A DNA stretch of 64,000 bases from Actinomycetes bacterium (GCA_025356335.1 JANXUF010000133.1:62001-126000); one strand, 5' to 3'; shown: positions 28,520 through 54,616, counted from the first letter of the stretch. Notes: generated from the sequence alone by a model not told the origin. Made by a program: numbers and translations.

Positions 28520-28626
28520 CAGTCTCAGTCTGGCCCGATCCGGCGGTGCGTTTCACCATCGAGAGCCCGGCAGCTGTGATCGCCTCGTGAGGTCGAACTG
28601 GTTACGAACTGACTATCTTGTGAGCG

Positions 28627-38708: not shown

Positions 38709-39314
38709 ATGGTTGAGCCTGTCGTCCGCAAGATCCATCTCGTCACCGAACTCGTGCTGCACGACGGGGGCCCGCCGCTGGAGATCGCCGCCAAGCGGGG
38801 CGCGATCAGCGCCGTCGTCGCCAACCCGTACGCCGGAAGACATCAGCCCGATCTGACCGAGTGGATGGATTCGCTGACAGGCCTTGGCGTGATCCTCGCC
38901 TCCGAACTGCGCGACACGCTGATCGGCGGCGGTGAGGGACGGCGTATCGAGGGCTACGGAAAAGGTGCCATCGTCGGTGTCAACGGCGAGCTGGAGATGA
39001 CTGCCGTGTGGCACGGTCCTGGCGGTGCCGGCCTTCGCGTCGCCCTCGCCGACGCCACGGGTCAACAACCCAAGGCGATGGTCCCCTCGACGACGAAGGT
39101 CGGCAACCTCGGCAGCCAGATCGACATCCCGATGGTCTACCTCCATGCCAGCTACCTGCGCTCGCACTACGACGTCATCCCGGTCGTCGTGCCGGATGCG
39201 CCGCGGCCGGACGAGGTGGTCTACACGCTCGTGATGACGACCGGCGGCCGACCACATCACCGCATCGGCGGCTTCACGATGGACGAGGTCGTCGGCTCCG
39301 ACGGCCTCCGCTGA
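38709..39314 (+). CDS. DUF1185 (amino acid synthesis family) protein, copy 1
   Basis: A 201-residue member of PF06684, a family known to have a variant of the AroH-type chorismate-mutase fold but with no proven reaction. Shared with the copy at 41327-41896 are the segments AVVANPYAGR (cf. AVLENPFAGS), YGKGAIVGVNGELE (cf. YGKGVIVGTNGELE), the TTKVGNLGSQIDIPMVY stretch (cf. GRPGTTLDIPLHY) and a GGRPHHRIGGFT end (cf. GGRPLPRVGGLT). It is followed by the cysteine-hydrolase gene on the same strand and faces the enamidase operon. A role in the same degradation pathway is inferred from position and from the paralogue. Confidence 0.87.
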   Translation: MVEPVVRKIHLVTELVLHDGGPPLEIAAKRGAISAVVANPYAGRHQPDLTEWMDSLTGLGVILASELRDTLIGGGEGRRIEGYGKGAIVGVNGELEMTAVWHGPGGAGLRVALADATGQQPKAMVPSTTKVGNLGSQIDIPMVYLHASYLRSHYDVIPVVVPDAPRPDEVVYTLVMTTGGRPHHRIGGFTMDEVVGSDGLR

Positions 39315-39345
39315 TCGCCTGACGAGTGAGGTCGAACGTTCGAGA

Positions 39346-40032
39346 GTGCAGGCAGCGGCCGGCGACGATAGCGCCGATCTGTCGCTCCGTCCGATGACAC
39401 CTTTCCCCGAGGATCCGTCGCCGTCGGCTCCGGATCCTTCGCCGTCGCCGTCGCCGGATCCTTCGCCGTCGCCGGATCCTTCGCCGTCGTCACCGTGGCT
39501 CGTGGTGATCGACATGCAGACGATTTTCGGCGACGCGTCGAGCCCGTGGTGCGCTGCCGGCTTCGACGAGATCGTGCCGCGCATCGTCGAACTGGCGGAG
39601 CACTTCGGGCAGCGCGTCGTCTTCACCCGCTATCTCGCGCCGCCCGTCCCATCGGGCTCGTGGATCGCCTACTTCCAACAGTGGCCGTTCGCCCTGCGTG
39701 CTCACACCGATCCGTTGTTCGAGCTGGTCGAGCCGTTCGCCGGTCTCGTCCATCACCTCGAGGATCGTGAGAGCTTCGGCAAGTGGGATGCGTCGATGAG
39801 CGAGTTGATCGGCAGCGGCGGCGAGATCTACGTCGTCGGAGTGGCAACCGAGTGCTGCGTGCTGATGACCGTCCTCGCCGCCGCCGACGACGGAACAACG
39901 GTCCACGTCGTCGCCGATGCCTGTGCCGGCGGAACGACCGACAGCCACCGAGCGGCCCTCGAGATCATGGCGCTCTACGGTCCGCAGGTCACCCTCACCA
40001 CCTCGGAAGCTGTGCTGCTCGGCACCGGCTGA
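39346..40032 (+). CDS. cysteine hydrolase (isochorismatase-like)
   Basis: Isochorismatase-fold amidohydrolase with the Asp-Lys-Cys triad: Asp in VVIDMQTIFG (near 54-63), Lys in ESFGKWDAS (near 140) and the nucleophile in GVATECCVL (near 170). Relatives include nicotinamidase, ureidoacrylate and maleamate amidases. The first 50 residues are a Pro/Ser/Asp tract (DPSPSPSPDPSPS) from in-frame tandem repeats in the DNA and are not part of the fold. The GTG at 39346 is used; an ATG at 39394 would remove 16 residues. Its place in the DUF1185/enamidase region hints at an amide-bond step in the pathway. Confidence 0.83.
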   Translation: MQAAAGDDSADLSLRPMTPFPEDPSPSAPDPSPSPSPDPSPSPDPSPSSPWLVVIDMQTIFGDASSPWCAAGFDEIVPRIVELAEHFGQRVVFTRYLAPPVPSGSWIAYFQQWPFALRAHTDPLFELVEPFAGLVHHLEDRESFGKWDASMSELIGSGGEIYVVGVATECCVLMTVLAAADDGTTVHVVADACAGGTTDSHRAALEIMALYGPQVTLTTSEAVLLGTG

Positions 40033-40130
40033 GGCGAGCGCACTGGCAGCCGGACGCCGCCGGCTGGTTGCGAGGGCGGCAAGAGATGGCAACATGGGGC
40101 TGGCAGCGTCGGCGTTGGCCGGCCGTGCTG

Positions 40131-41330
40131 TCAGCGGGCGGCGGTGAAGGTGATCGAGCGCATCGGCGGCGGCGTGTTGCGGCTCTTGCTGACGACGATC
40201 ACGCCGTCGATGATGGCGAAGGCCAGCGCCAGGGTGTCACCGATCTCCAATGCCTCCATCGCCGTCTTGGCCTGCGAGCCGAGTGGGGCATCGACGATCA
40301 ACAGGTCGGCTTCAGCGCCGATCGCAAGACGGCCGTTGGCGTCGCTGTGCAGGTCGGCGACGTTGCCCGTCGCCAGTGCCACCGCAGTCGGCCCGTCGAT
40401 CAACCCGAGCGACGCTGCGGAGGCGATCACCCTGAGCATACCGAGCGGCTGGACTCCGGAACCGGCAGGGCAGTCGGTCCCGGCAACGACGCGGTGCAAC
40501 TCGTTGCGTTCCCGGGCCAGATCGACGATCCTGCCGAGCATCGTGATGTTGCCGTTGTGGACGATCTCGATGCGTGCATCGGTCCGTTCGAGAATCGCCA
40601 CGACGTCGTCGATACCGAGGCTCGTCGGTCCACCGTTGACATGGCCGGCGACGTCCGGCTGCACCTCGATGACGAAGTCGGCACCGATCACGCCGCTCCC
40701 GGGGATCGACGCACCGCCGGTGTGCACCATCACCTTCATCTGTCGGGCCTGCGCCCAACGAGTCATCTGCGCTGCCTCTGTCGGGTCCTTGACGCCGGAA
40801 ATTCCGATCTCTCCGACGAGCCGGCAGCCGGCCTGGGCGAGATCCTCGAAGTCCTGCTCGACGAGACCTGGCTCGAGCAGTACAGCGCCTGCGTGCACCT
40901 TGACGCCGGACGGACGCGCATTGTCGAAACTGAGGTGCGCGAGCAGCGCGAGCGCCTTGACGCCTGCAGGCGTCGTCGGCCTGCCGGGGAGGTGTGGTTC
41001 GCCCGCCGAATACATCGTCGTCACGCCGCCGTGGAGGCACGACTCGATGAAGTCGACCGTCTTCTGCCGCGGGGTGAAGTCGCCGAACACCGGATGCACA
41101 TGGTTGTCGGCCATACCGGGCATGACGGTCGCACCGCCGGCGTCGATCACCGCCACCCCGTCGGGGATCTGCAGATCACCGGCCATGCCGATGCCGGTGA
41201 TGATCCCGTCCTGCACGACCAGCGTGTCGCCGTCGAGCAATGGCGCGCCGAGGATGCCGGACACCAGCATGCCGATATTCGCGATCACGAGCGGCTTGCC
41301 CGACGTCGGGGCTGCGGCAGTGACGCTCAT
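40131..41330 (-). CDS. ena: enamidase (amidohydrolase superfamily)
   Basis: Expected to open the ring of 1,4,5,6-tetrahydro-6-oxonicotinate, giving 2-formylglutarate and ammonia. The 399-residue protein resembles, as I recall the sequence, the Eubacterium barkeri enamidase along its length, for example PRQKTVDFIESCLHGGVTTM (88-107), SAGEPHLPGRP and the SRNTPP end. Likely metal ligands are His77 and His79 (DNHVHP), Glu164 (VGEIG), His193 (MVHTGG), His220 (AGHVNGGP) and Asp286 (AGTDCPAG). The ATG overlaps the stop of the DUF1185 copy 2 gene. Another cyclic-amide or imide hydrolase is the alternative, but the 6-hydroxynicotinate-reductase gene nearby favours enamidase. Confidence 0.85.
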   Translation of the reverse strand: MSVTAAAPTSGKPLVIANIGMLVSGILGAPLLDGDTLVVQDGIITGIGMAGDLQIPDGVAVIDAGGATVMPGMADNHVHPVFGDFTPRQKTVDFIESCLHGGVTTMYSAGEPHLPGRPTTPAGVKALALLAHLSFDNARPSGVKVHAGAVLLEPGLVEQDFEDLAQAGCRLVGEIGISGVKDPTEAAQMTRWAQARQMKVMVHTGGASIPGSGVIGADFVIEVQPDVAGHVNGGPTSLGIDDVVAILERTDARIEIVHNGNITMLGRIVDLARERNELHRVVAGTDCPAGSGVQPLGMLRVIASAASLGLIDGPTAVALATGNVADLHSDANGRLAIGAEADLLIVDAPLGSQAKTAMEALEIGDTLALAFAIIDGVIVVSKSRNTPPPMRSITFTAAR

Positions 41331-41896
41331 CGCAATCCGTCCTTTCGTTCGGCGTCTTCGATCGTCAGGCCACCGACACGAGGCAGCGGTCTGCCACCAT
41401 TGCTCACCGCGACGGCGAGTACGAGTTGATCAGCTGTCGGGGATTCGGCGATCCGCAGTTCGACGGCGTCGAAGTGGGAACGTACGAACGCGGCATCCTT
41501 GTAGTGCAACGGAATGTCGAGCGTCGTGCCTGGCCTGCCACGCTTCTTCGCTGAGGGGATGATCGCCAGACCTCCGCCGCAGGCTGCCCGCAACGGAACG
41601 CCGAGTTTGGGATGCAGCAGTGCGGCGGCGTGTTCGAGTTCGCCGTTCGTGCCGACGATGACTCCCTTGCCGTACGATTCGACGGCATCGGCGAGAGCGG
41701 CGACGGCCGTCTCGGAGATCTCCCGGCCGATCGACACGCTTGCCTCGATCAGTTCGCCGAGGTCGTCGACGTAGCTCCCGGCGAACGGATTCTCGAGGAC
41801 GGCAGCGGTGATGACCCTGCGGATCGGGCGGTCGAGCAGGCGCCCCATTTCGTACCGGCGCTCGTCGATCAGCGTATGGACGGCGATGACCTTCAT
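41327..41896 (-). CDS. DUF1185 (amino acid synthesis family) protein, copy 2
   Basis: A 189-residue PF06684 protein, paralogous to the 38709-39314 product and shorter at the N-terminus. Shared blocks are listed there; here they read ENPFAGSYVDDLGEL (about 35-49), ESYGKGVIVGTNGELEHA (about 76-93), and GGRPLPRVGGLTIEDAERKDGLR-like end. It is transcribed immediately before, and overlaps, the enamidase gene. A palindrome 18 bases ahead of its start matches one ahead of the molybdenum-hydroxylase operon. The two paralogues may form a mixed oligomer or act on successive intermediates. Confidence 0.87.
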   Translation of the reverse strand: MKVIAVHTLIDERRYEMGRLLDRPIRRVITAAVLENPFAGSYVDDLGELIEASVSIGREISETAVAALADAVESYGKGVIVGTNGELEHAAALLHPKLGVPLRAACGGGLAIIPSAKKRGRPGTTLDIPLHYKDAAFVRSHFDAVELRIAESPTADQLVLAVAVSNGGRPLPRVGGLTIEDAERKDGLR

Positions 41897-41913
41897 CGTC
41901 AGAGAATACCCGA

Positions 41914-41935
41914 GATCACATGTGTACAAGTGATC
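41914..41935. promoter_or_regulatory. operator-like palindrome, site a (before the DUF1185-enamidase pair)
   Basis: GATCAC and GTGATC are inverted around ATGTGTACAA, with 18 of 22 positions symmetric. It lies 18 bases before the DUF1185 copy 2 start and 18 bases after the MarR stop. The 18-base core (41916-41933) shares 15 bases with the core of the site at 48772-48789, including TACAAGTGA. Confidence 0.7.
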
Positions 41936-41953
41936 GCGTCGGCCGTGATCACG

Positions 41954-42388
41954 TCAATCGACAGTCGGATCGGCGATGCGCCGCAACAGGCCGAGGAAGA
42001 GTGCGGTCTCCTCCCGGGTCAACGGAGCGAGCGTCGCCCTGGTGATCGCAGCGGCATGCGGCAGTAACTCCTCGAGAGCAGCGCGACCCGCGGTCGTCAA
42101 TTCGACGACACTGAGTCTCGCATCATCATCGTCTGGTCCTGATTGCACCCAGCCGCGTTGTGTCAAGCGGTTGACCACACCCGTGATCGTCGCCGAATCC
42201 ATTGCCACCAGGCGACCGAGCTGGTTCTGATGGAGGGGACCGTCCGTGCCGAGTTTGACGAGCGTCGCCAATTGTGCCGGTGCAATGCGGGGCACGATCA
42301 TCTGCGAGAAGATCGTCCGATGTCGCTGGTTCGCCTTGCGCAGCAGGAAGCCGACCTGGTCCTCGAGTACGTACTTTCGACGACTCAC
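41954..42388 (-). CDS. MarR family transcriptional regulator of the heterocycle cluster
   Basis: A 144-residue winged-helix regulator, from the GTG at 42388. The frame continues upstream but would add 70 atypical residues. The DNA-binding part is at about 35-105: QLATLVKLGTDGPLHQNQLGRL, then MDSATITGVVNRLTQRGWV and a wing with DDDDARLSVVELT. It sits in the cluster, codirectional with all its minus-strand genes. MarR-type NicR of pseudomonads responds to 6-hydroxynicotinate, so a similar ligand is a natural guess. It is the best candidate to bind the two related palindromes. Confidence 0.88.
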   Translation of the reverse strand: MSRRKYVLEDQVGFLLRKANQRHRTIFSQMIVPRIAPAQLATLVKLGTDGPLHQNQLGRLVAMDSATITGVVNRLTQRGWVQSGPDDDDARLSVVELTTAGRAALEELLPHAAAITRATLAPLTREETALFLGLLRRIADPTVD

Positions 42389-42527
42389 CGCCGCCCCCGT
42401 ATCAGACGGCTCGCCGGTACCCGCCCGGACTTCGACACAGGCCCGGAGCTCGCGACGTTGCAGGGGAACGGCGGCGATCGCAGGGACAGGGACGACATGG
42501 CAGCGACCACCATACGACGTCAGCGAT

Positions 42528-43412
42528 TCAACCTGTCGGCAACCCGGCAGGGCCCAGCAACCGGTTGCCGAAGAGCCGGTGTTGCCCCTCGATTGCACAC
42601 CACTGATCTCCGAGCACGATCAGCGCGGCAGCGATCCGACCACCGTCGACGAGTCGTTCGGCGATCACGCTGCCGTGCCGCACCGCCTCGGTTTGCTCTG
42701 CCATGTCGAGTTCACCAACGGACACCGTCACCAACAGCTCGCCGAGGTCCGAGTCGTGCTGCAACGCGCACGCTGCCTCTCGGCGGATCGAAGGATGTCC
42801 TGGCAGATCGACGGCACTGGCGATGACCGACGCAGCAGCGTCGGCTGCGGCTGCATCGTGAGCGAACACGGTCACGGCGTCGGCGATACCGAGCGAAAAG
42901 CTTCGGCCGCGCCAGCCACTCGTGGCCACACCGCGGACGTCTTCGGCGTCGTTGATGGTGACGGTCCCGCCGAGGCGGCGATCGCTGGCCGGCCCCATCA
43001 GCCCGATGCTGATCGATCGGCCCTCGCCAAGGCCGAAGGCGATGTCGCCGCCATTGTTGACGATCAATCGATCGAGCCCCGCTTGCATCGACTGCTGCAG
43101 GACGTGATCGGCGACGGCGCCGGCGACGGCGGCCATCGGCGTGATGAAGATCTCGCCGAAACCGGACGTTGCGCTGACCATTCTGCTGGCGACGGCGCCG
43201 GCGACAGCGCGACCTGAACCCGTTGGCATCCGCAGTATCGCCAGCTCGGCAACGAGATCGACGAGCACCGTTTGCATGGCGTCGTGTGCAAGAGCGAAGG
43301 CTTCCCGCCGCGCATTCGAACATCCCTCGGCGGTGACGATCAGATCGATGGGTCCGTGCTGCAGGTGCAGTTTGAGCCCGTCAGCGGTGAGCGCAGCGAT
43401 CGGCCTGCTCAT
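42528..43412 (-). CDS. UPF0280 family protein (ApbE superfamily)
   Basis: A 294-residue protein of the UPF0280 family, distantly related to the FAD:protein FMN transferase ApbE. Visible marks are LHLQHGPIDLIVTAEG at the N-terminus, VAGAVADHVL near 97-106, LIVNNGGDIAFGLGEG near 115-130 and GVATSGWRGRSFSLGIADAVTVFA near 162-185; the last resembles the ApbE segment with conserved Ser/Gly and Asp. It is 34 bases downstream of the 6-hydroxynicotinate-reductase gene. One idea is that it flavinylates a partner of that reductase; this is an inference only. It is not recognised as carrying out a known step. Confidence 0.84.
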   Translation of the reverse strand: MSRPIAALTADGLKLHLQHGPIDLIVTAEGCSNARREAFALAHDAMQTVLVDLVAELAILRMPTGSGRAVAGAVASRMVSATSGFGEIFITPMAAVAGAVADHVLQQSMQAGLDRLIVNNGGDIAFGLGEGRSISIGLMGPASDRRLGGTVTINDAEDVRGVATSGWRGRSFSLGIADAVTVFAHDAAAADAAASVIASAVDLPGHPSIRREAACALQHDSDLGELLVTVSVGELDMAEQTEAVRHGSVIAERLVDGGRIAAALIVLGDQWCAIEGQHRLFGNRLLGPAGLPTG

Positions 43413-43446
43413 CGCCGGTCGGCCCGCTCATCGCCCTCCGGCGTGC

Positions 43447-44943
43447 TCATCGGTCGCCGAGTAGATGGCTGCCGTCGAGGTGCCGGATCCGTTCGCCTGC
43501 GAGAACCGATTCGATCGACCGGATCGAGCCGGCATGACCGCCGACCGCCAGATAGTCAGCCGTTGACATCGTGAATTCCAATGGAGCGACGATGGCAGGC
43601 GTCGGTACATGACCGAACGAACCACGGGGCATTGCCGTCACGTCGACCATGAAGGTGATGCCACCGCCTGGCCACAGGTAGACGGGGGCTCCGCCGCATG
43701 TGACCGACGTCAGGCGCGACCGCACCGAACGCGTCAGACCGATCGGGTTCTTCGTCACGCCGGCGCGCAGCGATCCGCCGGCCCCGGCGATGAACAACAC
43801 GGATGTCATCGCCGGTTCACAGTTGAGGCGGATGTGGTCGACGGAATCCTGCACGGCCTGCGGCATCGGTGCCGGGCGGGGGACGAGGTCGTCGTCGAGC
43901 ACGAAATAGGCGGAACTCTCACCGGTGGTGCTGACCATCAGCAGCCGCAGGCCGGCGTGCGCCCCGCGATCGGCACGGAACCGCTCGATGATCGCCAGCG
44001 GGTCGACGAGGTCGGTACCGCCCCAGCCGCTGCCGGGAGCGGCGATGTTGAAGTACCGACCAGGCGTCGACTTGCGACCCATGATGACGATGCCACTGGC
44101 GGGCATGTCGAGCACCGCACCGGCCTGGTGCTCGGTGAGAACGCCGGTGATGTGGTCGTCGACGACCACGACCTCATCGACGAGCGTGCTCCAATCGATG
44201 GCGAACATCCCGACCGTCGCCGATCCGCAGCCGACGCGCATCAGTTCCTCCGGCGTGCCGTCGATGATCGGAGCGATGCCCGCACGGAGCTGCAGTCGCG
44301 ATCCGCCGTCGACGGTCAGTTCGGTCGACTCGCCCTGGCAGAGGGCGAGGATGGCGCGCATCGTCGCCAGACCCTCACGTTTTGCGCCGCCTGTCAGGTG
44401 GTTGACCCCCCCGATCGACAGCATCTGCGAACCGTATTCACCGGTCGTCACGTGCCCGACGGCCTCGCCGTCGCTGCGGACGATCGCCCGTTCCGGCCCG
44501 ACATGGCGGTCGGTGTCGATCTTCACCTTGACCCCGCAGTAGGAAAAGATCCCCTCGGTGACGACTGTGACGGTGTCGACGCCACGTACGTCGCTCGAGA
44601 CGATCAGCGGTGCGGGCTTGTAGTCGGGATATGTCGTTCCGGACCCGGTGCCGGTGACGAAGAAGTCCTCGCCGCGCACGAGTTCGCCGTTCCACGCATC
44701 GTCCAGTACGGCGAACGGCACGATTTCGCCACCCCGGTCCCTGGTCCGCTGCAGGATCGTCACCGGGTCGATGCGCGTCAACACGCCGTCGACGTTGCCG
44801 TAGCGATCGCACGAACCCGTTTGGCCGACTTTGATGAAGCATCGGATCGGGCACGCCTCGCAGCGAACCTTGGTGACGTCGTCGACGATCGCCGAAGCGT
44901 CCGGGACGATCTCCGGATACTCAGATGGGCGCTGGCCGTTCAC
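43447..44943 (-). CDS. hnr: 6-hydroxynicotinate reductase homologue
   Basis: Expected to reduce 6-hydroxynicotinate to 1,4,5,6-tetrahydro-6-oxonicotinate with low-potential electrons. The 498-residue protein starts with a likely [4Fe-4S] site, Cys28-x2-Cys31-x3-Cys35-x9-Cys45 (RCEACPIRC, then GSCDRYGN). After that come the family-type segments VVTEGIFSYCGVKVKIDTDR and GEYGSQMLSIGGVNHLTGG, and a glycine-rich end with VTCGGAPVYLWPGGGI. The GTG start overlaps the stop of the molybdenum-hydroxylase gene. The assignment rests on recognition of the family, known from Eubacterium barkeri, and on the enamidase and hydroxylase neighbours; the exact substrate needs testing. Confidence 0.82.
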   Translation of the reverse strand: MNGQRPSEYPEIVPDASAIVDDVTKVRCEACPIRCFIKVGQTGSCDRYGNVDGVLTRIDPVTILQRTRDRGGEIVPFAVLDDAWNGELVRGEDFFVTGTGSGTTYPDYKPAPLIVSSDVRGVDTVTVVTEGIFSYCGVKVKIDTDRHVGPERAIVRSDGEAVGHVTTGEYGSQMLSIGGVNHLTGGAKREGLATMRAILALCQGESTELTVDGGSRLQLRAGIAPIIDGTPEELMRVGCGSATVGMFAIDWSTLVDEVVVVDDHITGVLTEHQAGAVLDMPASGIVIMGRKSTPGRYFNIAAPGSGWGGTDLVDPLAIIERFRADRGAHAGLRLLMVSTTGESSAYFVLDDDLVPRPAPMPQAVQDSVDHIRLNCEPAMTSVLFIAGAGGSLRAGVTKNPIGLTRSVRSRLTSVTCGGAPVYLWPGGGITFMVDVTAMPRGSFGHVPTPAIVAPLEFTMSTADYLAVGGHAGSIRSIESVLAGERIRHLDGSHLLGDR

Positions 44944-47714
44944 GCAGCACCCCGCTTGAGGATCGCCGCGAGAACCTTCGTCGGTGTCGCCGGCACGGAC
45001 CGGATGCGGATCCCGCACGCGTGATGAATGGCGTTGAGGATCGCCGGTGCTGTCGGGATCAGCGAGTGTTCGCCGACACCCTTGGCTCCGTAAGGACCGA
45101 CAGGATCGTGGGTCTCGACGATGATCGTCTCGATCGGTGGGACGTCGCCGATCGTCGGGATGAGGTAGTCGTGGAGGTTGTTCGTGCGACCCGGCAGATA
45201 CTCCTCGAGCAGCGCCAACCCGATCCCCTGGGCGATGCCGCCTTCGATCTGGCCGACGACGAGCTGGGGATTGATCGCTTTGCCGACGTCGTACGCTGCA
45301 ACCACACGATGCAGTTGCACGCGCCCCGTCGCCGTGTCGACGCTGAGCTCGATCAGCTGTGCCCCGTATCCGAAAACGGCGTACGGCGTTCCCTGGCCGT
45401 TGTGGTCGAGTGCCGTCGTCGGCGGGTCGTAGCTCTCGACGGCGACAACCACGAAGCCGTCTGCATCGACCGGAAGCCGGCGGAGGTCGACCGATCGGGC
45501 GACGCCATCGCTGTGACAACGGAGGACGCCAGCGTCGAACACGAACTCGGAGTCGAACGACGCATCGAGCATCGCCAGCAGCTTGGCGCGTAGCGACACA
45601 CCGGCGAGGTACGCCGCCATGCCGGACACGTACGTCTGGCGTGACGCCGAGGTCTTGCCGGCGTCAGGCGTGATCGAAGTGTCGGCGGACCGAAGCAGGA
45701 CGCGGTGTACTTCGATGCCGATCGCGTCGGCGACGATCTGGCTGATGACCGTGTTCGATCCCTGTCCGATGTCGATTGCGCCCTGATGCAGGACGACACT
45801 GCCGTCGCTACGCACGCCGACCTTGATCGTCGAGGGGTTGGAAAGCGAGGTGTTGCCGCACCCGTACCAGATTCCGGCAACGCCGATCCCGCTGCGGTGA
45901 CGGCGGTCATTGGCGCGATTGAGCGACTGTGCTCGCGTCAGCGCGTCGGCCCACGGGCCGCGGAGTGCTTCGAGGCAGTCCCGGATCCCGACGCCGCCTT
46001 CCAACACGTGGCCGGTGACGGTGCGCTGGCCGGCAGTGAGAGCGTTGAGGATGCGGAATTCGAGTCGATCGATGCCGAGTCGACCGGCGAGTTCGTCGAA
46101 CAGCGTTTCCTGGGCGATCGCCGCCTGAGGGACGCCGAAGCCGCGGAACGCACCCGAGGGCGGGCCGTTGGTGTGCACGGCGGTCGAATGGGCGCGGTAG
46201 TTGGGGATGAAATACGGTCCGGACGCATGGATCGGGACCCGGTTGGCGACAGTCGGACCCCAGGACGCATATGCCCCTGTATCGAAAACGCCCTCGAACG
46301 ACATTGCTGTCACCCTGCCGTTCGAATCGGCGCCGATGCTGACGGAGAGCTTCGAGGGATGGCGCTTCGTCGTGCTGGCCATCGACTCTGCACGGCTGTA
46401 GGTGATGCGTACCGGCTGACCGGTGCGCAACGCGGCGAGGGCGAGGAATGGTTGCACCGAGAGATCCAGCTTGCCGCCGAAGCCTCCGCCGACAGCGGTC
46501 GGCACGATCCGCACACGATGCTCGGCGACACCGAGTATCTCGGCCATCGACGCCCTGTCCATGTATGCCGACTGCGTCGTGACATGGATGACGACGAGTC
46601 CGTCGATGACCTCCGCCCAGCCCGCCTCCGGCTCGATGTAGGCGTGCTCGACGAAGGGCGAATCGAATTCGGCAGACGCCACTGCTGCACAGCTGGGCAT
46701 GACTGCGTCGACGTCACCGGTCTGCACGAAACCTTCCACGAGCACATTGGCCGGGCGGTCGGTGTGAACCAGCTCGGCTGCCGGGTGGAGGGCGAGCGCC
46801 GGCGAGGTGAGCGGATTCAGCGCAGCCCACACGACCGGGAACTCGATCGAGGAGAAGTCGAAGCCGGGCAGCACCACGACCGCGGCGACCGCTTCGCCGG
46901 CGAAACGCGTCTCGTGCTCGGCGAAGACCGGTTGATCGGCGAGCGGGGCGATCACCCCGAAGCGGTTGACACCCGGCACGTCGCGAGCTGTCAGGACTGC
47001 TGTGATCCCGTCGTTTTCCGAAACGAATGATTCGAGGTCGCAGAAGGTGAAGGCTGCCCGCGCGAATGGGCTGCGGATGACGTGGATGACGAGTGCGTCA
47101 TCAGGAGCGTCGTCGTCGCCGAAGACGTCGGTGCCGGCGACTTTGACCCGTCCGTCGACGCGTTCGATGGACGCACCGACCGCCTTTCCGGATGTCGGCC
47201 GCACCGTCACCGGATCAGCCGCATCGACATCGAGGACTGCGGCGATGATCGCCTGGTAGCCGGTGCAGCGACAGAGCACTCCGCCGAGGCCGTCCATGAC
47301 CTGCTGACGTGTGGGCTGCCTGTTCGTCCCGAGCAGCGCACGAGCGGCCATCAACACCCCTGGCGTACAGAAGCCGCACTGTGCAGCGGCGTGGCGCAGA
47401 AACGAAGCCTGCAATCGTTCGCCGAGTTCGTCGCCGGTCAGTCCCTCGACCGTGGTGATCGACGTCCCAGCGAGCCTGCCGACCGGAACCATGCAGGCGC
47501 ACACGGCGGCGCGATCGATCATCACCGTGCAGGCCCCACAATCGCCTGCGCTGCAGCCGACCTTGGTGCCGGTCAGGCCGAGTTCTTCGCGCAGTACCTC
47601 CGTCAGCACGGTCGCAGGCGGCGCCTCGAACGAGGCCGCAATGCCGTTGACGAGCACAGTCCGGAGCACGGCCCCATCGACGGCGGCCGCACCATCTGCA
47701 ACGTCGTTGCTCAT
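44940..47714 (-). CDS. molybdenum hydroxylase with fused iron-sulfur and molybdopterin subunits (nicotinate dehydrogenase-like)
   Basis: A 924-residue fusion. The N-terminal xanthine-dehydrogenase-type iron-sulfur part has CSAGDCGAC (Cys54, 59, 62) with Cys72 or Cys74, and CGFC (113-116) with LCRC (148-150) for two [2Fe-2S] clusters. The rest (about 175-924) is the molybdopterin subunit, with GGGFGGKLDLS, PSGAFRGFGVPQA, a GQG segment and GVGEHSLIPTAP holding the likely catalytic Glu. It would hydroxylate an N-heterocycle next to the ring nitrogen; nicotinate is the favoured substrate from the neighbours, xanthine or another ring the alternative. The ATG overlaps the FAD-subunit stop. The start was set by that overlap. 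Confidence 0.9.
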   Translation of the reverse strand: MSNDVADGAAAVDGAVLRTVLVNGIAASFEAPPATVLTEVLREELGLTGTKVGCSAGDCGACTVMIDRAAVCACMVPVGRLAGTSITTVEGLTGDELGERLQASFLRHAAAQCGFCTPGVLMAARALLGTNRQPTRQQVMDGLGGVLCRCTGYQAIIAAVLDVDAADPVTVRPTSGKAVGASIERVDGRVKVAGTDVFGDDDAPDDALVIHVIRSPFARAAFTFCDLESFVSENDGITAVLTARDVPGVNRFGVIAPLADQPVFAEHETRFAGEAVAAVVVLPGFDFSSIEFPVVWAALNPLTSPALALHPAAELVHTDRPANVLVEGFVQTGDVDAVMPSCAAVASAEFDSPFVEHAYIEPEAGWAEVIDGLVVIHVTTQSAYMDRASMAEILGVAEHRVRIVPTAVGGGFGGKLDLSVQPFLALAALRTGQPVRITYSRAESMASTTKRHPSKLSVSIGADSNGRVTAMSFEGVFDTGAYASWGPTVANRVPIHASGPYFIPNYRAHSTAVHTNGPPSGAFRGFGVPQAAIAQETLFDELAGRLGIDRLEFRILNALTAGQRTVTGHVLEGGVGIRDCLEALRGPWADALTRAQSLNRANDRRHRSGIGVAGIWYGCGNTSLSNPSTIKVGVRSDGSVVLHQGAIDIGQGSNTVISQIVADAIGIEVHRVLLRSADTSITPDAGKTSASRQTYVSGMAAYLAGVSLRAKLLAMLDASFDSEFVFDAGVLRCHSDGVARSVDLRRLPVDADGFVVVAVESYDPPTTALDHNGQGTPYAVFGYGAQLIELSVDTATGRVQLHRVVAAYDVGKAINPQLVVGQIEGGIAQGIGLALLEEYLPGRTNNLHDYLIPTIGDVPPIETIIVETHDPVGPYGAKGVGEHSLIPTAPAILNAIHHACGIRIRSVPATPTKVLAAILKRGAA

Positions 47715-48727
47715 CTGCGCAGACCTGTTCCGGCCGTTGCCGTTCCGCCCGTTGCCGTTCCGCCTGTTGGCATCGCGACCTGCGTGCGCATCGCGACCGG
47801 CGTGCGGCAGGCGAGCAGGGCGTCGACGATCAATCGAGGAACGACGAGTCGCCGGTATTCGCCGGTTGCCCGCACATCGTCGATCGGTGCGAGGAGATCG
47901 AGGGCGACCGAGCGGACGGCACTGTCGAGCGCTGCTTCCTCGATGCGTGCCCCGACGAGCGCGGCCTCCAAAGCCGGCAGCCGTGTGGCGACAGGTGAAC
48001 AGGCGCCGACGGCGATTCGCGCTCGGGTGATGGTCTCGCCGTCGAGGACGATCAACGCCGCGACCATGGCGATCGAGATCACCAGGTAGGCGCGCGAACC
48101 GAGCTTGACGAACGACGAATACACGCTGCTGTCCGCGTCTGTGGAATCGCCCGACCTGACACCGGAGGTGCGCGTGTCGAGCGACTCGGAACGGAAAGCG
48201 TCTGGGATCGTGATGGCCGTGACCAATTCGCCGTGGCGCAGGGCTGTCGAGCGATAGCCGGTGATGAACTCGTCGAGCGCGACGGTGCGGCTGCCGGTGA
48301 GCGACTGGAGTTCGACCACGGCGTCGAGCGTCAGCAGCGCAGGCACACCGTCGGCAGCCGGCGAAGCAGTGCACAGGTTTCCGGCGATCGTCCCGACGTT
48401 CTGGATCTGCGTCCCGCCGACTTGACGGGCGGCACACCGCAGACCGTCGAACGATGAGGGCAGGTCGGCGGTGGCGAGATCGCTCCAGGTCGTCGCCGCG
48501 CCGATGCGCCAACCTCCGCCGGTCTCGGCGATGCCACGAAGCTCGCCGAGTGCGCTGATATCGACGACGTGTTCCGGTGATCTGCCCACCGTCATCTGGT
48601 TCAACCGCTGCGGATAGAAGTCGGTGCCGCCGCTCAGCACGACCGTGTCAGCGTCAGACAGCACGACGAGCGCGTCATCCAGCGTCGCAGGTCGGGAGAA
48701 CATCGACCGGAACGGTTTGGAAGACAC
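47711..48727 (-). CDS. FAD-binding subunit of the molybdenum hydroxylase
   Basis: A 338-residue CoxM/CutM-type subunit that passes electrons from the iron-sulfur clusters to the acceptor. The FAD marks are VVLSGGTDFYPQ (28-39) and GTIAGNLCTASPAAD (about 112-126). The C-terminal domain is at about 190-320. The last 25 residues (TQVAMPTGGTATGGTATAGT) come from GC-rich tandem repeats in the DNA and are probably unstructured. It is first in the operon with the fused subunit, hnr and UPF0280; a long palindrome precedes it. Confidence 0.9.
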   Translation of the reverse strand: MSSKPFRSMFSRPATLDDALVVLSDADTVVLSGGTDFYPQRLNQMTVGRSPEHVVDISALGELRGIAETGGGWRIGAATTWSDLATADLPSSFDGLRCAARQVGGTQIQNVGTIAGNLCTASPAADGVPALLTLDAVVELQSLTGSRTVALDEFITGYRSTALRHGELVTAITIPDAFRSESLDTRTSGVRSGDSTDADSSVYSSFVKLGSRAYLVISIAMVAALIVLDGETITRARIAVGACSPVATRLPALEAALVGARIEEAALDSAVRSVALDLLAPIDDVRATGEYRRLVVPRLIVDALLACRTPVAMRTQVAMPTGGTATGGTATAGTGLRR

Positions 48728-48764
48728 GGCACCTCACAGCGGAACGTTCAGACGCACCATAGTC

Positions 48765-48796
48765 GCCGAGGTCACTCGTATACAAGTGACCTCGGC
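48765..48796. promoter_or_regulatory. operator-like 32-bp palindrome, site b (before the molybdenum-hydroxylase operon)
   Basis: The 12-base arms GCCGAGGTCACT and AGTGACCTCGGC are perfect inverted repeats around CGTATACA, which is itself nearly symmetric, so 30 of 32 positions match. It lies 37 bases upstream of the FAD-subunit start in the 85-base gap after the add gene. Its core shares 15 of 18 bases with the site at 41916-41933. A terminator for add is possible, since the add stop is 16 bases away, but the shared core argues for an operator. Confidence 0.75.
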
Positions 48797-48812: not shown

Positions 48813-49901
48813 CTAGGCGCCGAGGTGTTCTGCGCGGAGTTCGGCATAGCGAGGCTTGATGATCGTGTTGATGATTCGCAGGCGTTCGTCGAAATGCGTG
48901 AAGGCGCTCTTCATGGCGTTGATCGTCAGCCACTCGAACTCGGTCAGCCCCCACCCGAAGGCATCGGCGAGTTGCGACAGCTCGTGGGTCATTGAAGTGT
49001 CGCTCATCAGGCGATTGTCGGTGTTGACCGTCACGCGGAAACGCAGGCGGGCGAGCATACCGATCGGGTGATCGGCGATCGTCGCACAGATGCCGGTGCC
49101 GACGTTCGACGTCGGGCACAGCTCGAGCGGGATACGCCGATCGCGGACATAGGCGGCGAGCTTGCCGAGGTGTTCGGAGCCGGCGATGCCACTGATGTTG
49201 TCGACGATGCGCACCCCGTGGCCGAGTCGTTCTGCCCCGCAGAAGTGCACGGCCTCACCGATCGACGGCAACCCGAACGCCTCGCCGGCATGGATCGTCG
49301 CATGGAAACTCTTACGCTGCACGTACTGGAAGGCATCGAGATGGCGCGTCGGCGGATAGCCGGCCTCGGCACCGGCGATATCGAAACCGACGACTCCCTG
49401 GTCCCGCCAACGCACTGCGAGTTCGGCGATCTCCAGGCTGCGAGCGGCGGTGCGCATCGCACAGAGGATCACATAGACCGTCAGATCGGTCCCGGCGGCA
49501 CCCGACGTGAACCCGCGGATCGAGGCGGCAACGACCTCGTCCAGTGTCAAGCCCTGCTCGATGTTCAGTTCAGGTGCGAAACGGACTTCGGCGTAGACGA
49601 CGCCGTCAGCGGCAAGGTCGACGGCGCATTCGTGGGCCACCCGCTCGATTGCATCGGCGTGCTGCATCACACCGACCGTGTGGGCGAAGGTTTCGAGGTA
49701 GAGGACGAGGTCGTTGCGTTTGGCGCCACGGTTGAACCATTTGGCGAGATCGGCGACATCGTTCGTCGGCAGCGATCGATAGCCGAATTCGTCGGCCAGT
49801 TCGACGACCGTCTGCGGGCGAAGGCCCCCGTCGAGGTGATCGTGCAACAGCGCCTTGGGTGCGTGACGGATGACATCGAGCGGGGTCGAGGGACTACTCA
49901 T
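48813..49901 (-). CDS. add: adenosine deaminase
   Basis: Zinc-dependent deamination of adenosine or deoxyadenosine to inosine. The 362-residue enzyme shows the metal site HDHLDGG (20-26), [11 protein letters not shown] near 121-131, the HAGEAFG motif (near 216) with catalytic His/Glu, a GHGVRI segment and NTDNRLMS with the last Asp ligand (Asn-Thr-Asp instead of the usual S/N-T-D-D-P). The start is MSSPSTPL; a longer frame upstream is unlike protein. It lies next to the BMP-type nucleoside importer on the same strand and diverges from queF. Confidence 0.93.
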
Positions 49902-49981
49902 CACCCAATCGTACGACTTCTCCTGGCGTCGCGTTCGGGGGTGTCGCGTTCGACGCCCGACTGTGGCCGTACCCTCGTGGG

Positions 49982-50398
49982 ATGGACCAAACAACGGCGG
50001 CGACGCCAGCGGCGATATCGACGGCCACGCTCACAGCGCTCGGCTCCACGGTGCGTCATTCACTCGATCACGTCGAATGTTTTCCTGCGCCGCAGAACGT
50101 ATCCAGCGTCCGCTTCCGCAGCGACGAACTGAACTCGATGTGCCCGGTCACCCAGCAGCCGGACCTCTCGCATATCGAGATCCTCTACGTCCCTGACGAG
50201 TGGTGTGTCGAATCGAAGTCGCTCAAGCTGTATCTCTGGGGATTCCGCGATCGCGCTGTGTTCGCCGAGGCGCTCGCCGCCGAAATCGCCGGCGAGATCA
50301 TGTCGAGCGCCGGGCCGAAGACGGTGACGGTGACGTTGACGCAACGTCCGCGCGGCGGGATCGAAGTCCAGGCGATCTCGACGCTTCCGGCGAGCTGA
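49982..50398 (+). CDS. queF: 7-cyano-7-deazaguanine reductase (QueF), short type
   Basis: NADPH-dependent reduction of preQ0 to preQ1 in queuosine synthesis. At 138 residues it is a unimodular QueF. The catalytic Cys54 and Asp61 are in [11 protein letters not shown], and the QueF signature ESKSLKLYL is at 77-85. In the next family motif (typically F-H-E), the His position appears as Ala95 before Glu96 (VFAEAL). No other queuosine gene is here. It diverges from adenosine deaminase over 80 bases. A tunnelling-fold relative with another role is possible because of the changed His. Confidence 0.85.
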
Positions 50399-50435
50399 GG
50401 CCACCTACCCGCCATATCTGGCGGGTAGCGGTCCG
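50395..50435. repeat. intergenic hairpin repeat, copy E
   Basis: Starts with CTGAGGCCACC over the queF stop, then a perfect 10-bp stem (CTACCCGCCA and TGGCGGGTAG, 50405-50428) with a TATC loop, then CGGTCCGA. It is the same design as copies B and C. Between convergent queF and the permease gene it could also terminate transcription. Confidence 0.75.
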
Positions 50436-50449
50436 ATGAACCTCGAAGA

Positions 50450-51775
50450 TCAGTGGGAGTCGCCCGGTCGATATGGGCGACCGGAGAATGCTGGAGGTCG
50501 AAGCCGCTGGCTCGCTGACGCCAACACGATCAGGGTGATGATGTACGGAGCGGCGCTGGTCAGGTCGTCCGACAGGCGGTGGACCGTCGCATACAGGACG
50601 AAGAACAGCAGTGCAGCGCCGCCGGTGAAATAGGCGGTCACCCAACGTTGGCGCATGATCGCCGACACCGTGAACAGCAGCAGGATCAGTCCGACGAACA
50701 GCAACAGCGCAGGAATACTCTTGTTGTTACGCAGCCGCAGCGCGTCGGAGTAGCTGAACAGTGCCGCACCTCCGAGCAGCCCGGTCGGACGCCAGTTGCC
50801 GAAGATCATCGTCGCCAGGCCGATATAGCCGCGATTGGCGGTCATGCCTTCCTTGTACTGCGTGTTGGTGACGATCGCCAGGTATCCGCCGCCGAGTCCG
50901 GCCATCGCCCCGCTGACCGCCATGGCGATATAGCGCAACCGGAGCACTTTGACGCCGAGGCTTTCAGCGGCAGACGGGGCCTCACCGGACGAACGCAAGC
51001 GCAGACCGAAGCGGGTCCGCCACATGATCCACGCCGTGATCGGCACGAGCCCGAGCCCGAGGATCGTGGCCAGCGACATCTGCGAGAGGAACCCACGAAC
51101 GATCCCGGCGGCGTCACTGACGACGAACCAGCGCCTGCATTCGACCCAGAACAGGCCGCTCGGTTTGGAGAGGCAACTGGCATTGGCTCTGTCGGTGATG
51201 AACCGCAGCGTGATCTCGGGGATTGTGCCTCGCTGCGGAGGTGACAGGCTGACGCTGCCGACGCCGCCATGGGCGCCCTTCTTCCCGACGAAGTACACCG
51301 CCGACAGGTAGCGGACGGCACCGGCTGCCAGCAGGTTGATCGAGAAACCGGAGATGACGTGGTCGACGTTGAACCGGACTGTCGCCAGCGCGTGGATCAT
51401 TCCGCCGATCATTCCGCCGATCATGGCGAACAACAGGCCGACCCACGGTCCGTATTTCCAGGCACCGAAACCGCCGCCCCACGTGCCGAGGATCATCATG
51501 CCCTCGATGCCGATGTTGACGATGCCGACTCGTTCAGCCCACAAACCGGACAGGCCGGCGAAGAGGATCGGCAGTGCGAGGTGCAAGGTGGCCGTCACGG
51601 TCCCCGAGGACGTGAGGTCGTACGCCCCGGTCTTTTCGCGCACCACGCTCAGCAGTAGGAATGTCAGTGCTGCGCCGATGAGGATGCGCTGACGACTCGA
51701 TCGCGACGACCACAACAGCGCAGCGCTGCGCCTCGGGGGGCCGGCCAGGTCGACGTCAGCCTGCGTGAGGCTCAT
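50450..51775 (-). CDS. ABC transporter permease, BMP/nucleoside-type (second permease)
   Basis: Membrane permease of the branched-chain/ribose-like family used with BMP binding proteins (NupQ/YufQ type). It has 441 residues and about nine or ten hydrophobic segments, including FAGLSGLWAERVGIVNIGIEGM, typical of this permease class. It is longer than usual (about 310) because of a loop near 200-255 (FITDRANASC and WVECRRW) and an extra hydrophobic C-terminal region. The ATG overlaps the stop of the first permease gene. Confidence 0.9.
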   Translation of the reverse strand: MSLTQADVDLAGPPRRSAALLWSSRSSRQRILIGAALTFLLLSVVREKTGAYDLTSSGTVTATLHLALPILFAGLSGLWAERVGIVNIGIEGMMILGTWGGGFGAWKYGPWVGLLFAMIGGMIGGMIHALATVRFNVDHVISGFSINLLAAGAVRYLSAVYFVGKKGAHGGVGSVSLSPPQRGTIPEITLRFITDRANASCLSKPSGLFWVECRRWFVVSDAAGIVRGFLSQMSLATILGLGLVPITAWIMWRTRFGLRLRSSGEAPSAAESLGVKVLRLRYIAMAVSGAMAGLGGGYLAIVTNTQYKEGMTANRGYIGLATMIFGNWRPTGLLGGAALFSYSDALRLRNNKSIPALLLFVGLILLLFTVSAIMRQRWVTAYFTGGAALLFFVLYATVHRLSDDLTSAAPYIITLIVLASASQRLRPPAFSGRPYRPGDSH

Positions 51776-52872
51776 GCCGTCACCCCCTGCTGTGTGAGGT
51801 GGTGTTCGACGGCGTGCGCAGCGCGCTGCTGGGTCCGTTTGTCGACCCATCGTCCGGACGCCTCGTTGACGATGACCACGCTGAGCACGATGACCCCTTC
51901 GATGATCTGAACGATTTCCTGCGGCACCTTGATCAGGCCGAGCTTCGTCGCCGATGCCGCCAACAGGCCGAACAGCAGCGCCGACAGGACGATGCCGATC
52001 GGATGGTTCCGTCCGAGCAGGGCGACGGCGATACCGAGGAATCCGATGCCGTCGACGAAACCCTGCGACGAGTAGGCGTGGGAGTCACCAAGGGTCTGCT
52101 GCATGCCGATGAATCCGGCGACAGCACCGGAGAGCAGCAACGCCGTGACGATCATCCGCTTACTACTGATTCCCGACGTCTTGGCAGCGACATCGTTGTG
52201 GCCGGATGCGCGGAGGCGGAAACCGAAACGGCTCTTGAAGACGACGATCCAGTAGGCGAAGACGACGAGCAGGGCGACGATGAAGAACCCGTTGAGCTGA
52301 TCCTTGACGATGTCGGGCATCCACCCGCTTCGGGGAATCGGCCGGGTGGTGACGTTCTGGCTGTTGCCCTGGGTGTAGCGGAAGTAGGTGTTGAACAGCC
52401 AGGCGGCGAGCGAGATGGCGATGGCGTTGAGCATGATCGTGGCGATGACTTCGTTGACGCCGCGGCGGACCTTCATGAAGGCGGCGATACCTGCCCATGC
52501 CGCCCCGCAGATGCAGGCGACGGCGAGTTCAACGGCGACATGGAGCGGCGCGGGAAGGAAGCCGATGCGTGTACCGACGATCGCCGTCACGAGCGCAGCG
52601 ATGCGGTACTGACCCTCGACGCCGATGTTGAAAAGGTTCATCTTGAACCCGAGAGCGACGGCACAGCCGGCGAACATCAGCGGGGTGGCACGCTGGATGG
52701 CGTCGTACTGGATACGCCGCTCGCCTGCTGCGTCCCACATCGTCTGGTACACGTGGCTCGGGCTACGCCCGGTGAGCAGCAGGATGATCCCGCAGATCAC
52801 GAGAGCGAACAGCACCGCAGCGACCGAACTCGCAGCCGTGACACCGATGCGTTGCAACTTCTGGCGATCCAT
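51772..52872 (-). CDS. ABC transporter permease, BMP/nucleoside-type (first permease)
   Basis: NupP/YufP-type permease, 366 residues, with about eight to ten membrane segments; marks are ALGFKMNLFNIGVEGQYRIAA-like (FKMNLFNIGVEGQYRIA) and RRGVNEVIATIMLN. Its start overlaps the ATPase stop by one base (TGATG) and its stop overlaps the second permease start. It forms the membrane channel together with that permease. Confidence 0.92.
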   Translation of the reverse strand: MDRQKLQRIGVTAASSVAAVLFALVICGIILLLTGRSPSHVYQTMWDAAGERRIQYDAIQRATPLMFAGCAVALGFKMNLFNIGVEGQYRIAALVTAIVGTRIGFLPAPLHVAVELAVACICGAAWAGIAAFMKVRRGVNEVIATIMLNAIAISLAAWLFNTYFRYTQGNSQNVTTRPIPRSGWMPDIVKDQLNGFFIVALLVVFAYWIVVFKSRFGFRLRASGHNDVAAKTSGISSKRMIVTALLLSGAVAGFIGMQQTLGDSHAYSSQGFVDGIGFLGIAVALLGRNHPIGIVLSALLFGLLAASATKLGLIKVPQEIVQIIEGVIVLSVVIVNEASGRWVDKRTQQRAAHAVEHHLTQQGVTA

Positions 52873-54428
52873 CAGGCCGCGGCCTCCTGACGGGTGCCGG
52901 TCATGTAGAGACCCAACAGTTCCGGCGTCGCTTGTGCCGGCGTGAGCCTGGCGGTGATCATCCCGTCGAACATCACGACGATGACGTCGGACAGAGCGAT
53001 CAGCTCCTCGAGGTCCGCCGACAGCAGGAGCACCCCCATGCCGGCGTCCCGCGCCGTCCGCAGCCTCGCCCAGATGGCGTTCTGAGCGCCGATATCGACA
53101 CCGCGGGTCGGATGGGCGGCGATCAGAACAGACGGGTTGTTGACGAGTTCGCGTCCGACGATCAGTTTCTGCTGGTTGCCTCCTGACAGCGCGAACGCCG
53201 GGACGTCCTCTCCCGGTGTTCGCACGTCGAAGTCGTGGATGATTTCGCGACAATCGGCCTGAGAGCCGCGGACGTTGATCAACGGACCGATGTTGAACTT
53301 CGGCTGCGACTCTCGGCCGAGCATCGTGTTCTCCCAGAGCGGGCTGGAGAGCATCAACGCCTCGCGGTGGCGATCGAAGGGGATGTAGCCGATTCCCGCA
53401 TCTTTGCGGTGGCGGACGGTTTCATGGGTGACGTCGTTGCCGTCGAGGACGATCGTGCCGGCGGTCAGCGGCATCAACCCGAGGATCCCTTCGCACAACT
53501 CGAACTGTCCGTTGCCTTCCACTCCGGCGACGCCGACGATCTCGCCCTCGTGCACGTCGATGTCTATGTCCTGGAACACGTATTTCTGGCTGCCTGGCCC
53601 CACGACCTTGGCGGAAGCACCATTGACCTCCAAGCGGACCGCTGCACCGATCTTCGTGACTCTGGGGATCGGTTTCGGCAACTCGGAACCCACCATCATC
53701 TCGCCGAGTCTCGAGCGGGTGATCGAATCCGGGGTGACCGTCCCGACCGTCGTGCCCTGGCGGATCACCGTGATCTCGTCGGAAACAGCGAGTACCTCGT
53801 CCAGTTTGTGGGAGATGAAGATCACGGTTGCCCCGCCGGCAACGAGCACCTTCAGCGTCTCGAACAGCTCGTCGACTTCCTGCGGCACGAGGACGGCGGT
53901 CGGTTCGTCGAGAATCAGGATGTTCGCACCCCGGTACAGCACCTTGAGAATTTCGACTCGCTGTCGCTGGCCGACACCGAGGGCCGACAGCGGAGCGTCG
54001 AGGTCGACATGCGCACCGATCTGCTTGGCGAGTGCTGCGACTTTTGCCGTGCCCTCCGCATGGCGGATGACACCGCGACGAGCGGGTTCCGCTCCGAGGA
54101 TGACGTTCTCCAGGACCGTCAGATTGTCGGCGAGCATGAAGTGCTGGTGAACCATGCCGATGCCCACAGCGATGGCCTCCGCCGGCGACTTGAAATGCAC
54201 CTGCTGGCCGTTGACGTGGATCGTGCCGGCTTCGGGTTGATGCATCCCGTACAGCGTGTTCATCAGCGTCGATTTGCCGGCACCGTTCTCGCCGACGATC
54301 GCATGAATCGTTCCCTTGCGCACCTTCAGAGAGACGTCGTGGTTGGCGATCACGCCAGGAAACCGCTTCTCGATCCCTTCGAGTTCGACTGCGTACGGCT
54401 GCTCAGTGTTCGGCTCAGCAGTGGTCAT
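52872..54428 (-). CDS. ABC transporter ATP-binding protein with two ATPase domains (nucleoside type)
   Basis: NupO/YufO-like double ATPase of 518 residues. The first domain has Walker A GENGAGKST (46-54), LGVGQRQRVEIL and LILDEPTAVL. The second has a degenerate Walker A (GVEGNGQ) but a good signature LSGGNQQKLIVGREL, which is normal for the sugar/nucleoside group. It is transcribed after the binding-protein gene, across a gap with a strong hairpin, and before the two permeases. Confidence 0.94.
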   Translation of the reverse strand: MTTAEPNTEQPYAVELEGIEKRFPGVIANHDVSLKVRKGTIHAIVGENGAGKSTLMNTLYGMHQPEAGTIHVNGQQVHFKSPAEAIAVGIGMVHQHFMLADNLTVLENVILGAEPARRGVIRHAEGTAKVAALAKQIGAHVDLDAPLSALGVGQRQRVEILKVLYRGANILILDEPTAVLVPQEVDELFETLKVLVAGGATVIFISHKLDEVLAVSDEITVIRQGTTVGTVTPDSITRSRLGEMMVGSELPKPIPRVTKIGAAVRLEVNGASAKVVGPGSQKYVFQDIDIDVHEGEIVGVAGVEGNGQFELCEGILGLMPLTAGTIVLDGNDVTHETVRHRKDAGIGYIPFDRHREALMLSSPLWENTMLGRESQPKFNIGPLINVRGSQADCREIIHDFDVRTPGEDVPAFALSGGNQQKLIVGRELVNNPSVLIAAHPTRGVDIGAQNAIWARLRTARDAGMGVLLLSADLEELIALSDVIVVMFDGMITARLTPAQATPELLGLYMTGTRQEAAA

Positions 54429-54490
54429 TCAGATTCCTTCTCAGGTGGTCGGAGCCGATCGGCGAGGATGCTCGGTGAGGGGGAAATAGT

Positions 54491-54522
54491 CGAGAGCCCA
54501 GGGCCTGCGCCCTGGGCTCTCG
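54491..54522. terminator. strong hairpin between the binding-protein and ATPase genes
   Basis: CGAGAGCCCAGGGC and GCCCTGGGCTCTCG form a perfect 14-bp stem with a CTGC loop in the 188-base gap. On the transcribed (minus) strand it is followed by ACTATTTCC, a weak T-run. It may act as a partial terminator or as an RNA stabiliser that keeps binding-protein mRNA in excess. Nothing else is evident in this gap. Confidence 0.6.
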
Positions 54523-54616
54523 GATAGTACATCTCCAACGTGTCAGGTGAGACACGCGGAATCGACGGTCGCGTGACACCGCCACGCCGTCGGTTACGTG
54601 ATCGGTCGTCGTCTCC

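Follow-up and report, generated by a model that had tools for sequence, protein, structure and literature searches.

A probable nicotinate degradation island in an actinobacterium, with UPF0280 as the probable flavin transferase of its 6-hydroxynicotinate reductase

The nicotinate fermentation cluster of Eubacterium barkeri reportedly encodes a molybdenum hydroxylase, a 6-hydroxynicotinate reductase (Hnr) and an enamidase (Ena), the first and the last of which are represented by the structures 3HRD and 2VUN. The same reductive cluster has been published for Azorhizobium caulinodans, bradyrhizobia and strain SG-6C, the last of which grows on nicotinate and 6-hydroxynicotinate; the lower route in aerobes runs via glutarate, and the route also carries the breakdown of nicotinate-derived pollutants, e.g., 6-chloronicotinate (PMC3511419). 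Aerobic use of the reductive route is already known and not new. Here, we analyzed a stretch of 64,000 nucleotides from an actinobacterial genome (hereafter the window), in which positions 38,709-48,796 carry homologues of these genes together with genes for UPF0280, a MarR-family regulator, two DUF1185 proteins and a cysteine hydrolase. The segment is probably a horizontally acquired nicotinate island which, judging from its sequence, probably degrades nicotinate (vitamin B3) by the reductive route that anaerobes and rhizobia are known to use. New and unexpected is the probable functional tie between UPF0280 and Hnr, together with the predicted ApbE fold of UPF0280 and its loss of the catalytic histidine. 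Taken as a whole, we consider a nicotinate island in which UPF0280 would transfer a flavin to Hnr a fairly likely explanation of the locus.

A first-pass annotation of the window had named all of these genes, and each of them is present where it had been placed. Their description as one codirectional run applies to the seven genes on the minus strand, but not to DUF1185a and the cysteine hydrolase, which lie on the plus strand and converge on the others. Overlaps occur between the FAD and Fe-S/Mo genes, the Fe-S/Mo gene and hnr, and the DUF1185b and enamidase genes, and the remaining minus-strand genes are closely spaced. The pathway genes and the candidate flavinylation site are as follows.

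47711..48727, minus strand: FAD subunit of a molybdenum hydroxylase, probably a nicotinate 6-hydroxylase (PF00941, 8.9e-43; PF03450, 1.3e-17)
44940..47714, minus strand: fused [2Fe-2S] and molybdopterin subunit of the same hydroxylase, 924 aa (PF00111, PF01799, PF01315, PF02738, PF20256)
43447..44943, minus strand: 6-hydroxynicotinate reductase (Hnr), 498 aa (homology to annotated plasmid proteins, 4-Cys motif)
43753..43773, minus strand: candidate flavinylation site, Hnr residues 391-397, S-x-R-[A/S/G]-G-V-T397 (column conservation)
42528..43412, minus strand: UPF0280, ApbE fold, probable dedicated flavin transferase for Hnr (co-occurrence, predicted fold, profiles)
41327..41896, minus strand: DUF1185b (PF06684, 1.7e-62), overlapping the enamidase start
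40131..41330, minus strand: enamidase (2VUN, 1.3e-113, 49% identity, six ligand positions kept)

The homology to the E. barkeri enzymes that had been claimed for hydroxylase, reductase and enamidase was borne out. Ena matched the crystallised E. barkeri enamidase (2VUN) over its full length (E=1.3e-113, 49% identity), and all six ligands of the binuclear metal site are conserved, in window numbering H77, H79, E174, H203, H230 and D286. The first-pass annotation had listed the right residues with mixed numbering, as its E164, H193 and H220 are those of the E. barkeri structure. The molybdenum part of the hydroxylase matched the two Mo chains of E. barkeri nicotinate dehydrogenase (3HRD, chains A and B) with 267 + 215 bits and the alpha subunit of 4-hydroxybenzoyl-CoA reductase with 309 bits; the single-chain aldehyde oxidoreductase 1DGJ reached 401 bits, spanning the Fe-S and Mo parts together. 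The FAD subunit is about 44-53% identical to its counterpart in proteobacterial Hnr clusters. In contrast to E. barkeri, the Fe-S and Mo parts form one protein in the window, and a fused gene likewise precedes hnr in alphaproteobacteria and actinobacteria. The hydroxylase is of the right family and in the right place for a putative C6 hydroxylase of nicotinate.

Hnr is 58-64% identical to plasmid proteins, many of which are annotated as 6-hydroxynicotinate reductase, and its identity to Hnr proteins encoded in clusters amounts to 56-69% in aerobes and 41-46% in anaerobes. It falls within the clade of aerobic clusters that is known from Azorhizobium and bradyrhizobia. The N-terminal 4-Cys motif that had been noted earlier is real (C28, C31, C35, C45); 70-71 of 73 homologues carry the same cysteines, and the others have gaps at these positions. 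C239 and C375 are conserved as well. Hnr matched no Pfam or NCBIfam family and showed no significant sequence match in the PDB, and its structural model (pLDDT 84, pTM 0.81) gave no significant PDB fold match, the best hit having E 0.016 and a match probability of 0.04. An extra N-terminal ferredoxin-like domain is present in most clostridial Hnr homologues and, in contrast to these, absent from the window protein. Neither the reductase nor the enamidase matched a different proven pathway better. Since Ena is 49% identical to the E. barkeri enamidase and Hnr falls into the Azorhizobium/bradyrhizobial clade, the route to 2-formylglutarate appears to be of the already known kind.

In this organism, the molybdenum hydroxylase would convert nicotinate to 6-hydroxynicotinate, and Hnr, as an Fe-S flavoprotein probably receiving electrons from ferredoxin, would reduce the latter to 1,4,5,6-tetrahydro-6-oxonicotinate (THON). 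Ena would then open and deaminate the THON ring to yield 2-formylglutarate, which would be processed onward through glutarate, as in aerobes. As had been stated before, enzymes for the 2-hydroxymethylglutarate and 2-methyleneglutarate steps are not encoded in the island, unlike in the E. barkeri cluster; the families concerned were sought among the island genes and not in the rest of the genome. The clostridial clusters related to that of E. barkeri also carry UPF0280 and usually DUF1185. The bradyrhizobial loci have an Hnr-UPF0280-DUF1185 block, Ena and MarR in common with the window, and their Hnr shares its aerobic clade. Compared to the clusters of Azorhizobium, bradyrhizobia and SG-6C, the window host is actinobacterial, MarR sits between UPF0280 and DUF1185b, and the island contains neither a liv-type ABC transporter nor a ferredoxin reductase.

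The substrate is read from homology, and an island that hydroxylates another N-heteroaromatic compound, e.g., a related pyridine carboxylate, then reduces its ring and opens the lactam in an analogous way, would fit a variation seen among the clusters: the hydroxylase is either of the NicB type or of the FAD/Fe-S/Mo type, and HyuA/HyuB stands in for Ena in some of them. We regard this as improbable, since Ena retains all ligands of the proven enamidase at 49% identity, the Mo part matches the E. barkeri nicotinate dehydrogenase well, and a relative with such a cluster grows on nicotinate and 6-hydroxynicotinate. Nicotinate itself is preferred as the putative substrate. The alphaproteobacterial plasmid clusters L010, L013, L014, L015, L021 and L022 have no Ena on the record and contain a HyuA/HyuB (hydantoinase/oxoprolinase) pair instead, which suggests that the ring-opening enzyme was replaced by an unrelated one in these clusters. 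Three further loci (L016:8395-10182, L017:8392-10176 and L019:8375-10185) lack Hnr and pair a DUF1185 gene with one for an enamidase-like amidohydrolase, their neighbours encoding oxygenases or succinate-semialdehyde dehydrogenase. In these amidohydrolases, AK replaces GE at the stretch of the metal-ligand Glu, with a Lys at or beside the Glu position, so that the window protein falls on the enamidase side; they may open a different ring.

UPF0280, which had been listed among possible extra parts of the route, is a near-obligate partner of Hnr. The two proteins were found in the identical 38 of 240 alphaproteobacterial genomes, and no genome had just one of them; the chance of this coincidence is about 10^-44 if genomes are independent, a figure that is overstated because they share ancestry. 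In the plasmid collection, all 26 records with Hnr have UPF0280 close downstream. A UPF0280 gene lies on the same strand in 56 of 56 Hnr loci, those of anaerobes among them, most commonly with a 4-base overlap, and adjoins hnr in 55 of them, the exception being L065, where it is located elsewhere in the cluster. Within a 399-genome sample of the clostridial phylum, UPF0280 occurs in the cluster of every examined genome with a full-length Hnr; none of the loci found was recognisable as that of E. barkeri itself. Two clostridial loci, L139 and L140, contain UPF0280 while DUF1185 was undetected, making UPF0280 the tighter partner of Hnr. In the window genome, the single UPF0280 gene and both DUF1185 genes lie inside the island.

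NCBIfam lists UPF0280 just as 'hypothetical protein', and the papers searched do not mention the family. Its AlphaFold model (pLDDT 93) matched in Foldseek the own-family protein DVU1097 (2O34) and, beyond that, only ApbE, FmnB and Ftp up to E=0.01, at about 9-17% identity to the ApbE-type proteins. The ApbE family profile PF02424 was matched by 15 of 24 UPF0280 homologues at E<=0.1 (best 1.3e-5), and the homologue from L023 clears the curated cut-off of 25.6 bits with 29.1 bits. With 15.8 bits the window protein stays below this cut-off, thus representing a distant relative that is not filed as ApbE. Comparison of the UPF0280 and ApbE profiles gave 94% at E 1.5e-7. In addition to the fold, UPF0280 shares with ApbE, FmnB and Ftp the ADxxAT motif, the TSG serine, the GGD motif and an FmnB-like Arg spacing: S165, R170, D191 and T/S195 correspond to Ser257, Arg262, Asp301 and Thr305 of Listeria FmnB (PMC8906456), with equal spacing within the motifs, and Ser165 and Asp191 are invariant. 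UPF0280 differs from these proteins in lacking the catalytic His and its hairpin, in showing no sign of export and in having apparently one dedicated target. A likeness exists to Klebsiella, where a cytosolic ApbE serves a soluble fumarate reductase (PMC12052999); there, enzyme and target motif are canonical, whereas in the window the family is divergent and the motif weakened.

The Hnr of E. barkeri reportedly holds a covalent flavin in addition to Fe-S clusters, and such a flavin needs a mechanism for its attachment. As a cytosolic, divergent relative of ApbE, UPF0280 would transfer FMN from FAD onto a Ser or Thr of Hnr as its sole target. ApbE targets read D-x-x-[S/T]-G-A-[S/T] (PMC12052999). 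As the first candidate site in Hnr, T397 is proposed, which ends the stretch S391-x-R-[A/S/G]-G-V-T397; among 72 homologues with this column, R is present in 72 and G in 71, and position 397 is T in 68, S in three and C in one. Other candidates are T340, which is kept in all 72 homologues, and residue 270, where only S or T occurs; two conserved stretches, 'DxHITG' and 'TTG', were also considered as alternatives to T397. Bradyrhizobium G302 has Hnr and UPF0280, and no canonical ApbE was detected in this genome. The pairing with Hnr and the modelled fold together suggest that UPF0280 is probably a dedicated flavin transferase for Hnr, the most likely role and not a proven one, which had not been proposed in the first-pass annotation. 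That UPF0280 forms a second, His-less and cytosolic flavin transferase family attaching FMN to Hnr alone, with Hnr being a flavoprotein of a fold unseen in solved structures, is a more far-reaching proposal to which we give an even chance.

Several observations weigh against the explanation preferred here, in addition to the shared ancestry that inflates the co-occurrence odds. The Ser-His-Asp catalytic set of ApbE is incomplete, as the His and its hairpin are absent; in FmnB this residue, His273, is the general base, and a His to Ala substitution abolished activity. The H257G mutant of Vibrio cholerae retained reduced activity. A search of Hnr for the exact ApbE target motif was negative, and in the homologue L152 position 397 is a Cys. 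A ferredoxin reductase gene, present in many relatives, was not seen in the island. One further plasmid, L012 from Hydrogenophaga sp. BPS33, encodes UPF0280 and no Hnr on the same record, and no UPF0280 gene neighbours the divergent Hnr paralogue L153. On L012, the UPF0280 gene is repeated and accompanied by IS1071 elements, a MarR gene and a Rieske oxygenase. L152 and L153 are the two Hnr copies of the clostridial genome G674; in L153, the S-x-R-A-G-V-T stretch is gone along with several otherwise invariant residues, and this copy adjoins two enamidase-like genes.

The missing His base would also suit a role in which the pathway stands as proposed and UPF0280 supplies FMN by cleaving FAD, like Ftp of Treponema, an FAD pyrophosphatase among the ApbE relatives (PMC4767422), or serves Hnr as a chaperone or as a subunit that binds flavin. 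We consider this unlikely though worth keeping in view, as the strict pairing with a single enzyme is better suited to a target-specific modifier than to a general FMN supply, and as the covalent flavin reported for Hnr calls for some means of attachment. If UPF0280 is instead the flavin transferase of Hnr, the family gains a function and the installation of the covalent flavin of 6-hydroxynicotinate reductase is explained. In that case, a His-independent ApbE-like mechanism becomes directly testable, and Hnr produced alone in a foreign host is predicted to be inactive or incomplete.

The other parts of the island could be separated into core and accessory genes. Almost every Hnr cluster, of aerobes and anaerobes alike, encodes an orthologue of DUF1185b. 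The extra parts named in the first-pass annotation are not of one kind: UPF0280 and DUF1185b accompany Hnr almost everywhere, whereas DUF1185a and the cysteine hydrolase are accessory, putative members of the pathway gene set.

38709..39314, plus strand: DUF1185a, second PF06684 paralogue, accessory (PF06684, 1.5e-54)
39346..40032, plus strand: isochorismatase-type cysteine hydrolase, accessory (PF00857, 9.1e-24)

DUF1185a matches the first member of a tandem DUF1185 pair elsewhere (45-47%). The cysteine hydrolase recurred in one other cluster only (36% identity) in the searches made, and a function as a pathway enzyme is unsupported by conservation. DUF1185b accompanies aerobic as well as anaerobic versions of the route, whether the ring is opened by Ena or by HyuAB, and should therefore act no later than 2-formylglutarate. 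It would most likely aid the ring-opening end; hydrolysis of an enamine, e.g., 2-(aminomethylene)glutarate, is a tentative assignment with about one chance in three. PF06684 also includes TgnF and HcdD of the trigonelline and hydroxycoumarin pathways; TgnF takes part in degrading a pyridine carboxylate, and a stimulating effect on the TgnE-dependent oxidation of succinic semialdehyde has been ascribed to it (PMC7913881).

Transcription of the minus-strand genes may be governed by MarR as two units, from the FAD gene to MarR and from DUF1185b to Ena, which are delimited by two copies of a 23-bp palindrome located upstream of the FAD gene and of DUF1185b.

41954..42388, minus strand: MarR-family regulator (PF01047, 1.5e-10)
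48769..48791, no strand assigned: 23-bp palindrome, copy 1, probable MarR operator of the hydroxylase-Hnr-UPF0280-MarR unit
41913..41935, no strand assigned: 23-bp palindrome, copy 2, probable operator of the DUF1185b-enamidase unit

Of the 23 bases, 18 are shared by the two copies, and at one pair a double change leaves the palindrome intact; copy 1 sits in a 12-bp inverted repeat. Sites within 2 mismatches occur twice in 5.57 Mb and not at all in a reversed control; as the pattern was derived from the two copies themselves, the evidence consists of their similarity, location and rarity. In front of the plus-strand genes for DUF1185a and the cysteine hydrolase there is no copy. The palindrome was absent from the other loci examined with a looser pattern and, therefore, cannot be confirmed by comparison, and MarR genes recur in Hnr clusters. 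The palindromes are probably MarR operators, a prediction from the DNA itself. Scans for sigma-70 promoters and terminators gave nothing above chance.

The island forms a 10.2-kb insert between add, encoding adenosine deaminase, and upp, which we take from its sequence to encode uracil phosphoribosyltransferase. In all seven same-family relatives with both genes on one contig (G1215, G1214, G1213, G1216, G019, G008 and G027), the add and upp matches are 20-51 bases apart, in contrast to the gap of 10.2 kb in the window genome, indicating that the cluster was inserted later. These flanks and the adjacent Bmp/BPD_transp_2 ABC transporter could suggest that the cluster is part of a surrounding nucleoside salvage operon acting on purines or pyrimidines. 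The adjoining add-upp pair in the relatives led us to reject such a role in nucleoside or pyrimidine catabolism; in addition, the palindromes mark the island's own units only, and nucleoside-salvage neighbours are missing beside the clusters of relatives elsewhere. We consider this possibility very remote. The reductive nicotinate route would have entered an actinobacterium by clean insertion.

The gene set was also sought elsewhere, as had been proposed earlier, and it recurs across several phyla, in alphaproteobacteria, actinobacteria and clostridia. Hnr is rare among relatives of the host, being found in 1 of 296 genomes sampled from its class and in 5 of 297 sampled from its phylum. The window Hnr groups with those of three actinobacteria from a different family (support 100/96), which have the identical gene order of FAD, Fe-S/Mo, Hnr, UPF0280 and DUF1185b, followed by Ena where the contig extends; Sulfitobacter carries the same block. 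The G+C content of the island is barely elevated (66.2% vs. 64-65%).

Outside the island, the nucleoside-type Bmp/BPD_transp_2 ABC transporter genes and the adenosine deaminase gene occupy positions 48813-55801 on the minus strand, the latter being the former neighbour of upp, now parted from it by the island. At positions 28221-30515 on the plus strand, a protein of 764 aa with a C-terminal ABC ATPase and a TOBE domain is encoded, which scores against ModC, tungstate and phosphonate transporter models, in all cases below the cut-offs, and might supply molybdate. The MoCoBD_1 domain of the xanthine dehydrogenase family matched at ten places in genome G000, indicating that the organism is rich in molybdenum hydroxylases.

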